DNA of 58,870 nt from a virus. How positions within the stretch are numbered: position 1 is the stretch's first letter; each line of letters opens with the position of its first letter. The DNA lies in IMG/VR virus record IMGVR_UViG_3300047564_002916, positions 1 through 58,870 of that record; one strand, 5' to 3'. A program made the position numbers and the translations under genes. Shown here piece after piece: positions 26,574 through 31,902 of the stretch. The notes beneath the pieces were generated by a model. That model was given only the letters and a program-made list of their open reading frames with translations, was not told the origin of the DNA and ran no database searches.

Positions 26574-29500
26574 CTATGCTGTTAATCTTTGAAGTAGCAA
26601 ATCCTTCATCAATTCTGAAGAGGTTTTACCTGGAGAATTAAACATCATTGGCGGTTGGCTAGCTGGCATAGTTGGCATTTGTGGTTGTTGATTATTAATA
26701 ATCATCATGTCATTTGTTGACTGTTCTTCTTGTGAAGATAATTGTTCTATTTGAGCAATTGTATTTTGTTGAGATTGGGAAGCTGGAGAAATAAAATTAT
26801 TATAAGTTGGCGAATTTAAATTTGTTACTGACGCCATTAAATTGTTAGGTGCTGCCGAGAACTGAGAAGTAGATGACACCGCCTGAGCTGGTGGGGTAGC
26901 AGTGGCAGAGGGAGTGGGCTGTGGTTGCTGAGGTTTAGCTATTGTTGATGGTATTTTTCCTCCTTTAGGTAATGCTATATCAGTTCTACCATGAATCAAT
27001 TTTAATATCTCCACACCATCTTTGACCATGGACATACCAGCACCTGCCCCACCACCAGAAAAATATCTAGTTTCTGCTCCTTCAATGACGGGAGCAAGCA
27101 TAGAAGTATTTTCTACAGAACTTCCAAATCTATCTCCCGACTTTACTGGAGTATAAAAATCAATAGCATTTCTTCCAGTGCCTCCATTTCTAGCACGATG
27201 GGCAGCTTCAGCATCTGTAATCCACTTATTTTGTTCGTCCTTGGTTCCGTTCACAGGGAAAATTCTGCCACCAACGCCAGCATTGCTAAGTTCCATTTTC
27301 CTACCAACTCTATCATAAGCTACAGCCATTTGTAATATTAATTTTCTCTTGTCTTCCATGCTAACGTTAGGTCCAAAAGAAAGGTCTTGGTGGAAGTCAG
27401 CACTTCCTCCAATAACTCCGCTTGGTCCTGTTTTTAAACCAGTGTCAAAGGCACCATCGCCAATAAGATTGAGGTCCATTCCGCCTCCTCCTCCGCCTCC
27501 TCCACCTCCACCAGGACCACCAGTGTTGAGATTTTTCAATAAATTTTCTAACTTTCCTTCTGGGTCGATCATACTCAGAAGTCTTTCGGCAAATAAATCC
27601 TCATTTTGGGTGTCAAGTAATTCTTTTTCTTTTCCAGTAAATTCTTCTTCAGCAGATCCTGTTCTTTTTTCTTTAACTTTCTTCAATTCTTTATCAAGTT
27701 GTGGCAAAGACCCCCCAACATTAGTTTGAGTAACAGTTGATGGAATATCATACTCTTTAGCCATCTGCCCAGCAATACCTTTAAATGTTGGAGCAATTGG
27801 TGCCGCTACAGCGCCAGCAGAATTAATGTATTGTGATGTGGCAGCTAACATAACACCACCAAGAGTGCTCATTGGAGACATATCCAACGGAGCATCTTTT
27901 TTAACAACAGCTTCAGTGCCGTGTAGTATTGCCGTGCCTGGTTTAGTTAATCCTGTGCCAGTTTCATGTGCTCCAGTAACTTTATCAGCTACAGCACCAC
28001 CAGCCATTCCGCCACCAATTGATCCCACAAGGCCGCCTAGGACGGCTCCAATAGCGGCACCAGGGGCAGCGCCAACACCGCCAAACCATACCCCTATAGC
28101 CGCTCCTAGAGCAGCTCCAGCCTTTGCTCCGACAGCACCACCAGCAGCAGCACCAGCTAATCCTCCGCCAACTCCAGATAATGCTTGAACTTCGCTTTGC
28201 CCAGATTGTTTTCTATCAGCATATTCCAATCCAGCAAAAACATATCTAGCAGGACCAGCCATCCTGCCAACATTACCCATGCCACGAACTTTACTTAGAG
28301 CACCAACAGCTCGTTTTCCTTGGGTAGGAAGAATAGAAGTTATTTTATTTGCTACCTTTGCTTGTGCTTTACCAGGAAGACGCTGTAATTTTCTTACTTT
28401 TTGCCTAGCATTTCTTACAGACTTAGGCAGTTTACGGTATAATTTTCTAGTTAATCTAGACTTTAAATATTTTACAAGTTTATTTTCTCTTTTCTTTTTT
28501 TGTGGTCCTTTAGTTAAATCTTGATAATCAGAAATTCCAGCAGCATCTCGCTGTGCTTCGAGTTTATTTTCAGACGATTTAGATTCTAGTACTTCGCTTT
28601 GTTGTTGTGATATATTTGCCTGTGCTTCAAACTGTTGTAATATTAAACCAAATTTATCTTCAAGTATATTTGTTTGAGATGAAATTAATTCTCCTATTGC
28701 TAATTGAGTTTCGATAGAAGCTTTAATTAATTCATTTTGATTTTCTAAGTTTTTATTTACAGTATCTAATGTTGCTTGAATTCTACCGAAGTTAACAACA
28801 ATAGCATCAAATATTTTTTTGTTGCTTGTGTATGTGGATTCTTTTTTTGGCTTGTTTATTTTATCAAGTAGTTGCTCAAGTAGTTCTGGATCTACTTCAT
28901 CCTGTAATAGTTCATCGGGTATATCATCTTCAGATCCAAAATCCTCATCGTCTTCGTCTTCTCCAGCAGCATCTACAATCTCTTCTTCAATATTTTCTAT
29001 TACCTGTTCATCATCTTGATCTTCTTTCTCGTCTTCTCTAACTTCATTAAGTAAATCATCTAAATTACTACCATAAAGATCATCATAATCTTCGTCATCC
29101 ATCTCCTCTTCATCTTCTTCTTCATCCTCATCTGGATCTTGATAGTATCCATCATAGACTGGAGGAACAATTACTTCAGTTTCATCTGGTTTTAATTTTA
29201 CTAACTGAAGAATAAGTTCAAGAATTTTAGCACGATATTCCTTAACCTCTTCATAATCATCACGAACATTTAAACCAGTAGCTAAGAATAACCACTGCCT
29301 AACAGCTACTTTATCTTGACTATCTTTATTATCGCCACCTAACTTACCAGCAAAATAAATTGCTCTATCAATATCTGATTTAAATTCTAAATCATAAAGT
29401 CCATTCTGTCCCCACATGTAGCGGGTCTTGATGTGTTGTAGTTCTGAAAATAGTTCTGGATGGTTTACCTTTCTAGTAACCTTAGCTTTGAACTCTTCAA

Positions 29501-30248
29501 TCCTTCTTTTATCTTCTGCTATGATGGCATCAATAGCATCCATAATCTCATCTGACTTTTTCTCAAGAGCAGTATCAAGATTATCTACTATTTCATCAGC
29601 AAATTCTTTGCCATCATCTACAAATTTATCTCCTGGATTGTATACCTGTGTCTGTCCATATTCAGGTAAATATGTATCTACTAACCAATTAATATAGTTC
29701 TCTAAGTTATCACCAGATTCATTTTCTAATCCAGGATAATATCCAGATTGTTTAATATTTTGTATCAGCTTATCGGCATCACGTTCAGGTAAATTTACAA
29801 AAGAAGAAAGCTTTCCAAACAACTCATCCTTTATACCAGTAAGCCTTGCCTTTAATTTACGCCAGATTTTTTCGCTAACTTGATTGATAGGATACCAACG
29901 TATTGGTAAACCAGAAGGAACTTTTGGTTTGGTATCTTCTACTCTCGTATCAACAAAGTCTGCTGTTCCAGCAGAAGATATACCATAAAATTCTTTTAAC
30001 TGACTAGTAATAGCACGAATAGCATCGTTCTCCTTACCAGTCATTAAATCGCTATCAATACCATCATAGTATTCTGGAAGCAATGATGGCACTAACCATT
30101 CATCACTACTAGCAATTAATTTCTTTGCCTGTTCTATTCCTTCTGAAGTATGTGGAAATACACGATAAGCAATAAGAGTTCCGACAGCAATTTCAGTATT
30201 GTCCCTGCCGTTTTTTCTAATAGGTTTTATTGCTTTTGATGGTATCAT
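26574..30248 (-). CDS. Tape-measure-like tail protein (1224 aa)
   Basis: Residues about 369-443 are strongly acidic (runs of E and D). Residues about 530-620 are helical and Gln-rich, and 620-690 very basic. Residues 689-754 are a Gly/Ala-rich hydrophobic stretch suited to membrane insertion. H-G-T-E-A-V-V occurs near 774 and a run of glycines near 916. A later segment with D-F-H-Q-D-L and G-R-N-A-I-D-F-Y may be a peptidase-like domain. The arrangement (large, hydrophobic, just after the gp26/-1-frame chaperone region) is that of a tail tape measure. The ATG overlaps the TGA of the -1 frame (ATGA), which suggests coupling. Confidence 0.65.
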   Translation of the reverse strand: MIPSKAIKPIRKNGRDNTEIAVGTLIAYRVFPHTSEGIEQAKKLIASSDEWLVPSLLPEYYDGIDSDLMTGKENDAIRAITSQLKEFYGISSAGTADFVDTRVEDTKPKVPSGLPIRWYPINQVSEKIWRKLKARLTGIKDELFGKLSSFVNLPERDADKLIQNIKQSGYYPGLENESGDNLENYINWLVDTYLPEYGQTQVYNPGDKFVDDGKEFADEIVDNLDTALEKKSDEIMDAIDAIIAEDKRRIEEFKAKVTRKVNHPELFSELQHIKTRYMWGQNGLYDLEFKSDIDRAIYFAGKLGGDNKDSQDKVAVRQWLFLATGLNVRDDYEEVKEYRAKILELILQLVKLKPDETEVIVPPVYDGYYQDPDEDEEEDEEEMDDEDYDDLYGSNLDDLLNEVREDEKEDQDDEQVIENIEEEIVDAAGEDEDDEDFGSEDDIPDELLQDEVDPELLEQLLDKINKPKKESTYTSNKKIFDAIVVNFGRIQATLDTVNKNLENQNELIKASIETQLAIGELISSQTNILEDKFGLILQQFEAQANISQQQSEVLESKSSENKLEAQRDAAGISDYQDLTKGPQKKKRENKLVKYLKSRLTRKLYRKLPKSVRNARQKVRKLQRLPGKAQAKVANKITSILPTQGKRAVGALSKVRGMGNVGRMAGPARYVFAGLEYADRKQSGQSEVQALSGVGGGLAGAAAGGAVGAKAGAALGAAIGVWFGGVGAAPGAAIGAVLGGLVGSIGGGMAGGAVADKVTGAHETGTGLTKPGTAILHGTEAVVKKDAPLDMSPMSTLGGVMLAATSQYINSAGAVAAPIAPTFKGIAGQMAKEYDIPSTVTQTNVGGSLPQLDKELKKVKEKRTGSAEEEFTGKEKELLDTQNEDLFAERLLSMIDPEGKLENLLKNLNTGGPGGGGGGGGGGGMDLNLIGDGAFDTGLKTGPSGVIGGSADFHQDLSFGPNVSMEDKRKLILQMAVAYDRVGRKMELSNAGVGGRIFPVNGTKDEQNKWITDAEAAHRARNGGTGRNAIDFYTPVKSGDRFGSSVENTSMLAPVIEGAETRYFSGGGAGAGMSMVKDGVEILKLIHGRTDIALPKGGKIPSTIAKPQQPQPTPSATATPPAQAVSSTSQFSAAPNNLMASVTNLNSPTYNNFISPASQSQQNTIAQIEQLSSQEEQSTNDMMIINNQQPQMPTMPASQPPMMFNSPGKTSSELMKDLLLQRLTA

Positions 30249-30430
30249 TGATTAGCTGCTGCTCTCTTTGCTTCTTCTTCCTTAAGGTGTTGAATTAACA
30301 AGGATACATACACTTCTCTTTCCCAAGGAATTAAATTTTCTACTTCCGTCAAAGAATATTTATGATACTGTAACAAAGCAAAATTAGTTCTGAAGTACCC
30401 TTCCAAACTATTTTGGAAGAGTGCTATACG
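30245..30430 (-). CDS. -1-frame extension of gp26 (61 codons), gp51-like position
   Basis: An open frame overlaps the end of gp26 and has no ATG, GTG or TTG before its conserved part. It encodes RIALFQNSLEGYFRTNFALL followed by a helical, charged tail with P-W-E-R-E-V-Y. It is in the -1 frame relative to gp26 and is entered exactly at the slippery T TTT TTC. A -1 shift would make a 297-aa gp26 fusion (236 + 61). It ends in a TGA overlapping the tape-measure ATG. In T4, genes 26 and 51 are adjacent here, and in lambda-like phages the chaperone pair G/GT before the tape measure is made by -1 frameshifting. An internal TTG start at the tenth codon is a weaker alternative. Confidence 0.7.
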   Translation of the reverse strand, partial: RIALFQNSLEGYFRTNFALLQYHKYSLTEVENLIPWEREVYVSLLIQHLKEEEAKRAAANQ

Positions 30431-30450
30431 AAAAAATTCTGTAACCCTTC
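30398..30450 (-). promoter_or_regulatory. Candidate programmed -1 frameshift signal in gp26
   Basis: In mRNA order: a Shine-Dalgarno-like GAAGGG (30445-30450), 8 nt, the slippery heptamer T TTT TTC in the gp26 frame (30430-30436), an 8-nt spacer with the gp26 TAG stop, then a 10-bp hairpin (CTCTTCCAAA pairing with TTTGGAAGGG, loop ATAG, 30398-30421). All standard elements are present at normal spacing. Confidence 0.75.
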
Positions 30451-31137
30451 TATAGTATATTCAGATTCTACTCCAGTATTAGGATTGATTACTTTAAACT
30501 TATGAATAAGACGAGGCATTGATTCATAGAAAGTTTGAATTGCTTCAAATTGTTTTGCTGTAAGACTTTCCACAAATTCTTTCATTTCTTTTTTAGAAGT
30601 TGTAGAAGAGTCCCATACTTCTTCCGTGTTAAAAATTTGATCAATTGAATCAGCAATAAAATCAAATATTTCTTCTGTTTTAATATTTTTATTAAGAAAT
30701 TCTGATTCAATAAATCTATCCATACCAGGATATTTCATGACAATACCAGTAGTATCATCAAGCATAATTTTACTTGTATGACCTTCTGGTTTAAAAACAT
30801 TTACATCATTGATATTAATAGACACTTCCATCTGTGTTGTGTTGTCATCTTGACAAGTAACATTCATAATAATCTCTTCACTTACCGAGGCAGCTCTAAT
30901 TTTTAAAAAGATATACTCAAGATCAAAGCTTGGGAGATCATCTACCTTAATTCTTGATTGAACACAATTTTTAATCAGATCTTTGACAGCATTTTTGATG
31001 TCCTTTTCTTCTTCCGATTCCAAAGCTAACAGTAAAACCTTTTCTTCTTTCACTACAAAAGGTCTATACTTAATTGTCTTACCAGTAGAAGGTAGTTCTA
31101 GTTCGTATGTAGGAATTCCAATCTTTGGTAATGCCAT
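30424..31137 (-). CDS. 26: gp26-like baseplate hub/tail assembly protein (237 aa)
   Basis: The N-terminus (L-P-x-P-T-Y-E-L-x-L-P-S-T-G-K-x-I-x-Y-R-P-F-V-V-K-E-E-K-V-L-L-L-A) and a middle C-Q-D-D-N-T-T pattern match the T4 gp26 family of baseplate hub subunits. It lies immediately upstream of the tape-measure region, where long-tailed phages carry tail assembly chaperones. The last codons contain a slippery sequence that would let some ribosomes shift into the -1 frame and make a 297-aa form. A GATAAATA late-like motif (31164-31171) lies about 27 nt upstream. Confidence 0.75.
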   Translation of the reverse strand: MALPKIGIPTYELELPSTGKTIKYRPFVVKEEKVLLLALESEEEKDIKNAVKDLIKNCVQSRIKVDDLPSFDLEYIFLKIRAASVSEEIIMNVTCQDDNTTQMEVSININDVNVFKPEGHTSKIMLDDTTGIVMKYPGMDRFIESEFLNKNIKTEEIFDFIADSIDQIFNTEEVWDSSTTSKKEMKEFVESLTAKQFEAIQTFYESMPRLIHKFKVINPNTGVESEYTIEGLQNFFV

Positions 31138-31163
31138 AAAACTTTATTTCAATTCGGTATCAT

Positions 31164-31171
31164 TATTTATC
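31164..31171 (-). promoter_or_regulatory. Late-promoter-like GATAAATA
   Basis: The motif overlaps the 3' end of the tail-tube-like gene and reads into gp26. Confidence 0.5.
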
Positions 31172-31874
31172 CGTTGTATTTACGGATATCTACATTCCAA
31201 TATGTGTGACGAGTATAATAAAAATTAGCACTCACCTTTGTAATTTGAGATGATCCATATGATAATGGAACAGCATCAATAGAATAAGGATATACATTTT
31301 CTAATACACATACTAAAGATACTCTTCCGTTGGGAGCGTTCTGACCTCTTTCTGCTTTAGATATTCTCAATGTAGCTTGATATTCTTCTGGGTATTGTAA
31401 TCTATTAATTCGATTGTCTGCTCTTTTTATAGCAAAACTTTTAACATCCTTCAATAAAGATGATGTTGCTTTTTCTTCAAACATAGTATCACCAAATATA
31501 AATCCATGCCAAGCATTTAGAAATTTAAATGGAATCATATTGGCATCACACATCCACGATAAAGAAAAGTCACTAACCATTCTTGTGTGAGCATAATTGA
31601 TAGTTCCTTCACCTAAATATCTGCCATTGATTTGACCAGTAGCAGCAGAAATATTTGGAAGTTGTGCCTCATCACAAAACATATTAATTAAGGCACCTGG
31701 CTGTCCAGTAGTGGTATTTTCTGGAAGTTTTATTCCTAGTCTACCAATAGTATTAACTAGGCTGCTCAGCTTACCATTGGTAAAATCAAATTCAACATCA
31801 TAACCATTGGACATCGCCATACCGCCATTGGCGGCAATAGCAGCTACGAAGTTGTCTATTGATTTGGTTGCCAC
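31167..31874 (-). CDS. Tail-tube-fold protein, gp54/gp19-like (235 aa)
   Basis: The protein has Y-D-V-E-F-D-F near the N-terminus, C-D-E-A-Q-L-P-N-I-S-A-A-T-G-Q-I-N-G-R-Y and Y-A-H-T-R-M-V-S-D-F-S-L-S-W-M in the middle, and a C-terminal beta region. These resemble the T4 tail tube family (gp19 and the tube initiator gp54). The gene is next to gp48 and gp26, which points to a tube initiator in the baseplate. The start is GTG at 31874. A TATAAATA late promoter at 31895 serves it. The precise choice between gp54 and another tube-like subunit is uncertain. Confidence 0.6.
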   Translation of the reverse strand: MATKSIDNFVAAIAANGGMAMSNGYDVEFDFTNGKLSSLVNTIGRLGIKLPENTTTGQPGALINMFCDEAQLPNISAATGQINGRYLGEGTINYAHTRMVSDFSLSWMCDANMIPFKFLNAWHGFIFGDTMFEEKATSSLLKDVKSFAIKRADNRINRLQYPEEYQATLRISKAERGQNAPNGRVSLVCVLENVYPYSIDAVPLSYGSSQITKVSANFYYTRHTYWNVDIRKYNG

Positions 31875-31882
31875 TCTAAATA
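31875..31882 (+). promoter_or_regulatory. Late-promoter-like TCTAAATA (plus strand)
   Basis: The motif begins one base after the opposing GTG start and reads toward gp4, whose GGAGG ribosome-binding site is at 31888-31892. Confidence 0.5.
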
Positions 31883-31894
31883 CAGTCGGAGGTT

Positions 31895-31902
31895 TATTTA
31901 TA
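31895..31902 (-). promoter_or_regulatory. T4-type late promoter TATAAATA (minus strand)
   Basis: A perfect octamer reads toward the tail-tube-like gene. It lies only 4 bp from the plus-strand gp4 start, so the two divergent late transcription units overlap. Confidence 0.65.

Follow-up and report, generated by a model that had tools for sequence, protein, structure and literature searches.

The window, by which we mean the whole stretch of 58,870 nucleotides that was analysed, carries on its minus strand a tail tube gene, a probable tail assembly chaperone gene and a tape-measure-like gene in that order, with an overlapping second frame at the junction of the last two. The features of this locus are as follows.

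31167..31874, minus strand: tail tube protein gene, upstream (PF23849, E 2.4e-52; phrog_45, E 9.3e-41).
30424..31137, minus strand: predicted short form of the tail assembly chaperone, 237 aa, named gp26 or baseplate hub in relatives (PF12322, E 6.7e-70; phrog_150, E 3.6e-76; the model of its N-domain best matches tail assembly chaperones).
30445..30450, minus strand: SD-like GAAGGG, 8 nt before the heptamer; a possible stimulator.
30430..30436, minus strand: slippery heptamer T TTT TTC, in zero frame.
30424..30426, minus strand: zero-frame stop TAG, within the spacer.
30397..30422, minus strand: hairpin of 11 pairs (30422-30412 with 30407-30397) and a 4-nt loop; a likely stimulator, judged by folding, pair counts and a minimum of mean folding energy.
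30245..30433, minus strand: C-terminal extension in the -1 frame, 62 aa from the slippery Phe plus the stop TGA, named gp51 or hub assembly catalyst in relatives (phrog_634, E 5.1e-27; an HMM of 96 such peptides matches the C-terminus of gp51).
26574..30248, minus strand: tape-measure-like gene, 1224 aa, downstream; its ATG overlaps the stop of the -1 ORF (ATGA).

The short-form gene, read from 31137 to 30424, ends in CAG AAT TTT TTC GTA TAG. Beyond the slip the -1 frame runs for 61 codons without a single ATG until it reaches the start of the tape-measure-like gene, and the predicted fused product is 236 + 61 = 297 aa long, as the earlier note had said. Its GAAGGG, the distance of 8 nt and the in-frame T TTT TTC were likewise found on the minus strand (30450-30445 and 30436-30430), as were the spacer with its TAG and the 4-nt loop, but the 10 pairs and 8-nt spacer that it gave omit the outermost A-U pair; the hairpin has 11 pairs and starts 7 nt past the heptamer. 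Its folding energy is -14 kcal/mol (z -3.7), equalled by one of 200 shuffles. All the described elements are thus confirmed, among them the core of a bacterial -1 frameshift cassette, which consists of a zero-frame heptamer of the form X XXY YYZ and a structure downstream of it. The tape-measure identity of the downstream gene is given by its length, its position and the annotation of relatives only (in HTVC008M and Cr30 the tape measure gene is annotated after one small extra gene); the 1224-aa ORF had no Pfam match, and its PHROG matches are mostly of unknown function.

The heptamer by itself is not unusual in the AT-rich window, where 31 were found against 33.3 expected; its combination with the end of an ORF is. 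Among the 69 stop-to-stop ORFs of at least 100 codons, that of the chaperone is the only one whose last 10 codons hold an in-frame T TTT TTN, and three others end, within the same distance, with a different XXXYYYN heptamer.

In tblastn searches the short form matched 639 phage records and the -1 extension 548, mostly of Synechococcus phages but also of phages of Vibrio, Prochlorococcus, Sinorhizobium and others. The loci that we compared were drawn from phage records and from IMG/VR, and the IMG/VR relatives were the best 80 per search, so that the counts are no census. A run of six T in slippery phase (N NNT TTT TTN) was present in 262 of 264 single-gene loci, a number that counts near-copies and a few duplicate records and in which single-gene means every locus outside the list of two-gene loci; the two exceptions are K361 and YC. 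Four ORFs without an end and the repeat loci (L099, L101-L119 and L301-L325) were excluded, and L326-L328, which were added later, stand outside the 264. The T run was absent from the matching place in all 28 gene rows of the two-gene loci. The initial count covered the last 14 codons and misses the matching place in genes that bear the extension, hence whole ORFs were scanned for these 28 rows; five T4-type gp51 rows carry six T 221-222 codons from the end, i.e. near the start of the gene. At the level of whole records, 22 of the 24 with one PF12322 gene have the T run, and at the matching place it is missing from all nine that have two.

The base after the T run varies (C in 201, T in 49, A in 10 and G in 2 of the 262 loci), and the run is thus kept even where the slip codon has changed from Phe to Leu, as it has in 12 loci. 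The zero-frame stop follows the heptamer at 0, 1, 2 or 8 codons in 14, 204, 6 and 38 loci, respectively, so the place of the slip site does not depend on that of the stop. The 38 loci have lost the adjacent zero-frame stop and have a short form 8 codons longer, with the slip site retained; 13 of them are L228, L226, L184, L176, L171-L174, L180, L232, L143, L147 and L170. Nor is an invariant N NNT TTT expected from codon use alone, since in the rest of these genes 672 of 937 codons for Phe are TTT, and 2505 of 3668 codons for Asn, Ser and Asp end in T. The codon counts, like most of those below, are taken over 96 clusters at 80% identity that were chosen for the T run, five of the 262 loci being too short for clustering.

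The -1 frame itself is open for 55-69 codons in all 96 clusters. Behind the zero-frame stop the entropy at its codon positions 1, 2 and 3 is 1.22, 0.74 and 1.72 bits (84 clusters); the third position is thus the most variable, and conservation of the peptide begins at the slip. Such a conserved frame could also be a separate small gene that is translated by termination and reinitiation at or near the stop, i.e. by translational coupling. Most of the annotated records examined do give the second frame as a gene of its own, the first ATG stands at codon 2-3 in 21 of the 96 clusters, and K361 and YC, the two loci without the T run, have TAATG. The window, on the other hand, has no ATG in this frame, and 56 of the 96 clusters have no ATG, GTG or TTG in its first 10 codons. 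The window does have a TTG at codon 8, but this is a varying Leu codon, written TTG in 17, CTA in 16, CTT in 14, TTA in 12, CTG in 8 and CTC in 7 of 84 clusters. In the 38 loci with the longer short form the stop of the zero frame is 8 codons away, and a phased T run would not be required for coupling at all. We therefore consider coupling improbable as the explanation of the second frame.

Even less probable is transcriptional slippage, in which the RNA polymerase would slip on the T run and produce mRNAs of mixed frame. The site is a homopolymer, and 49 of the 262 runs comprise 7 or 8 T, but the other 213 are exactly 6 T long and transcriptional slippage usually needs longer runs than that. 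An RNA polymerase would moreover have no need for the N NNT TTT TTN phase found in the 262 loci, and a structure directly behind the T run also speaks against it. That the frame change is a sequencing error or the mark of a decayed gene is hardly credible, for although it falls at a homopolymer, the same arrangement recurs in 262 of 264 loci, from metagenome contigs as well as from phage isolates.

With these alternatives weighed, the comparison strongly implies -1 frameshifting and a pair of isoforms, and we think it very probable that the one gene encodes two isoforms of a tail assembly chaperone by this means. Homologues of the two kinds that the earlier note had named as arguing against this reading do exist. 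A non-slippery sequence is found in the two of 264 loci and in two further Ackermannviridae, and an ATG or GTG occurs in the first 10 codons of the second frame in 26 of the 96 clusters, which were chosen for the heptamer, so that start codon and slip site coexist there.

The structure behind the slip site can be compared in the same way. Over the 96 clusters the 45 nt that follow the heptamer have a mean minimum free energy of -9.21, and the minimum sits exactly there; other positions have means between -3.4 and -7.0, save for those at -12, -6 and +6, whose windows overlap it. The mean z is -2.0, with 48% of the clusters below -2, but 36% are at -1 or above, so a strong hairpin is not universal. 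Against synonymous shuffles of the -1 frame the mean z is -1.42 and 45% of the clusters are at 0.05 or less, which argues that the structure is not merely a by-product of the -1 peptide. We have not relied on the chance estimate for the folding of the clusters, which treats them as independent.

Pairs of the stem were counted in 35 hand-picked sequences that share the stem register of the window, with a reference structure taken from one of them and with 8 sequences whose stem is one column off omitted. Pairing is found in 95.6% of 385 cells, against 42-58% in slid registers. The covariation score reaches 0.21, compared to 0.12 at most. Two-sided changes occur in 8 cells, whereas the register slid by -1 has 6 of them, and additional pair types are no more frequent than in shuffles; RNAalifold recovered only 6 pairs from the 35-sequence alignment. 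Covariation thus gives the hairpin modest support, as the two-sided changes hardly exceed those of the -1 register and the sequences were hand-picked. We also considered the hairpin as an intrinsic terminator and rejected this, since a scan of 29900-31900 gave two terminator-like sites, neither of them at 30397-30422.

A 4-nt SD match lies within 20 nt upstream of the heptamer in 83 of the 96 clusters, compared to 437 of 1728 control windows. When the count is centred on the conserved Gly codon, however, such a match occurs in 79 of 95 cases, and around other Gly codons of the same genes in 68 of 98. The excess therefore mostly reflects the conserved Gly codon, and the SD-like element, weakly supported as a stimulator, is not claimed as one. 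Across the relatives, the SD-like element is not separable from this Gly codon.

The family of the protein is clear, with PF12322 (T4_baseplate) matching at 235.6 bits where the cut-off is 24.5. Both PF12322 and phrog_150 match the window protein, T4 gp26 and T4 gp51 alike. The family of the cyanophage gp51, phrog_634, matches residues 147-246 of T4 gp51, and among 684 ORFs the HMM of 96 -1 peptides picks out the gp51 copies of ten two-gene loci, T4 included (E 1e-10 to 2e-5), as well as a piece of a split gp51 copy in L212, but no gp26 copy of the two-gene loci. As both T4 proteins hold PF12322 and gp51 alone carries the extension, gp26 is by homology the counterpart of the predicted short form and gp51 that of the long form, and two genes in T4 would do the job of one gene in the window phage. 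The reading of the earlier note, a pair of the lambda G/GT kind, fits the tests that were run, with the correction that T4 genes 26 and 51 do not correspond to two halves of the locus, the whole PF12322 domain being present in both.

Over 34 whole records, PF12322 is found once in 24, twice in nine (T4 among them) and three times in G006. In one set of whole records, near relatives of the window included, 18 of 19 have a single match and T4 has two; a search with the window protein in its own 58,870-base record, which is a fragment, matches only itself. The gp51 copy of the T4-like G006 (L212, 1501-2246) matches PF12322 in two pieces in different frames, which suggests a broken gene or a sequencing error. 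In a tree of 41 N-domains, eight gp26 copies fall on one side of a branch (95/94), eight gp51 copies group on another (100/100) and four Ackermannviridae are separate (100/99). We infer the direction of duplication from the gene layout only, as the root of this tree is not known.

The AlphaFold model of the window protein has a mean pLDDT of 89. Its best matches among 999 chains, over residues 1-94, are 3KLU, 2OB9 and 3FGX (Z 6.9, 6.8 and 6.3; the next is 3.0); 2OB9 is the tail assembly chaperone of HK97, and the other two are of chaperone type. These Z-scores, under 8, are moderate, and the model points with moderate confidence to a tail-assembly-chaperone fold of the N-domain, with the HK97 gp13 type as the best fit. 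Foldseek against the PDB gave no match at E 0.001 or better (2OB9 came at E 1.4), and a sequence search of the PDB with the window gp26 and T4 gp51 gave none at E 1. Against viral models Foldseek gave 61 matches at E 0.001 or better, and those with a name among the best 50 of the 61 are mostly baseplate hub or uncharacterized.

Four phages of the Ackermannviridae type (phiMAM1, STP07, YC and K361; L326 2253, L327 2313, L300 2064 and L012 2079) have a -1 extension without the T run. Their junctions read GTT TTC ATC TGA in phiMAM1, ATT TTC ATT TAA in STP07, GCT TTC ATG TAA TG in YC and CTT TTC AAG TAA TG in K361. The extension HMM matches phiMAM1 (E 1.6e-8), YC (3.6e-8) and STP07 (5.9e-4), and K361 only at 0.24. 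K361 is unclassified in its own record and is grouped with the Ackermannviridae by the N-domain tree; viral contigs scanned with K361 and Desulfovibrio phage proteins yielded no relatives. Ahead of the conserved portion of the extension, phiMAM1 and STP07 lack any start codon, and their records leave the ORF unannotated.

We picture the mechanism in the window phage as follows. Most ribosomes would stop at the TAG and give the 237-aa short form, while a minority would be held up by the hairpin, both tRNAs would slip from TTT TTC to TTT TTT, and the slipped ribosomes would continue in the -1 frame to give the 297-aa long form. If lambda gpG/gpGT are a guide, the domain that both forms share could coat the tape measure protein, and the extension could recruit tail tube subunits. 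What the comparison shows is the homology, the conserved slip site, the structure behind it and the coding -1 frame; that ribosomes do slip here is inferred, and how they slip, how often, and what the protein does in tail assembly are carried over from lambda (PMC5009743).

More tentatively, and with somewhat less than even confidence, we hypothesize that PF12322 chaperones have come to two isoforms by three solutions. One would be frameshifting at the heptamer, in cyanophages, a pelagiphage, rhizobial phages and phages of Vibrio and Aeromonas. The second would be a single duplication in one T4 branch, after which the isoforms were separate genes and the slip site was lost. The third would belong to the Ackermannviridae, where an extension behind (N)NT TTC, without a heptamer and in two of four without a start codon, may be read by a non-canonical slip. 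The family offers a clean natural comparison of recoding and gene duplication as ways of making two isoforms.

Another consequence concerns annotation. The gp51 hub assembly catalyst of the cyanophage records examined would be the tail end of a frameshifted chaperone, misannotated as a gene of its own and often shortened or missing. In public cyanophage records (e.g. L005, L007, L017 and L003) the start of gp51 has been placed inside the second frame, with the conserved beginning cut off, and in S-CAM1 (L003) the -1 extension is not annotated at all.

The window contains a second candidate for frameshifting, with these features.

57975-57271, minus strand: C39-like peptidase ORF ending in A AAA AAG TAG (PF13529, E 1.5e-10).
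57280-57274, minus strand: heptamer A AAA AAG.
Down to 56804, minus strand: phage lysozyme in the -1 frame (PF00959, E 2.2e-23).

No ATG, GTG or TTG stands in the -1 frame before the lysozyme motif, and the hairpin behind the heptamer has -14.2 kcal/mol (z -2.2), with 10 of 200 shuffles as good. We compared 81 rows, i.e. the best 80 IMG/VR loci and the window, near-copies included. Among these a lysozyme match is in reach in 58, always in the -1 frame; AAAAAAG is present in 56 of the 58 and in none of the 23 rows without a lysozyme match. The lysozyme match has no start codon before it in 48 of the 58, and both rows without the heptamer have start codons. The 46 distinct windows behind AAAAAAG have a mean z of -3.4. 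It looks like a conserved -1 frameshift that would make a peptidase-lysozyme fusion, and no publication on such a frameshift was found by title or abstract start among the matches listed.

How the site of the window phage stands beside known systems depends partly on the literature. A -1 frameshift in phage tail assembly chaperones was reportedly described by Xu et al. in 2004, and Vladimirov, Gautam and Davidson in 2022 (Virology 566:9-15) are said to have presented T4 gp26 and gp51 as tail assembly chaperones. Among the matches listed, we found by title or abstract start no publication on cyanophage slip sites themselves. The paper on PRFect (PMC10885494) credits Vladimirov et al. 2022 with some T4-like phages that have one short and one long gene, and the paper on phage Adele (PMC12846349) cites the same work for T4-like phages whose TAC-N genes carry poly-T slip signals. 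Atkins et al. 2016 (PMC5009743) call G-T frameshifting widely conserved in long-tailed phages "except T4". By these accounts the kind is already in print, as very likely are sites of the window type in T4-like phages, and we regard the site, for the most part, as a real and good new example of a known mechanism rather than a new kind.

In comparison to T4, the window protein has a domain homologous to gp26 and gp51 and its extension is homologous to the C-terminus of gp51, but T4 has two genes and the window phage one gene and a predicted frameshift. The lambda heptamer is G GGA AAG, and unlike lambda the window phage is contractile-tailed and T4-like, with a chaperone of the PF12322 family and T TTT TTC as its slip site. 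What the two have in common, as far as gpG/gpGT are described in the available passages of PMC5009743, is a gene just upstream of the tape measure, a short form and a -1 extended form, a slip site near the 3' end and a chaperone-like fold of the N-domain. The chaperone locus of phage Adele and the Vandenendeviridae belongs to other phage families and has the motif GTTTTT, but according to the corresponding passages of PMC12846349 it shares with the window a conserved T-rich slip site and an open -1 frame.
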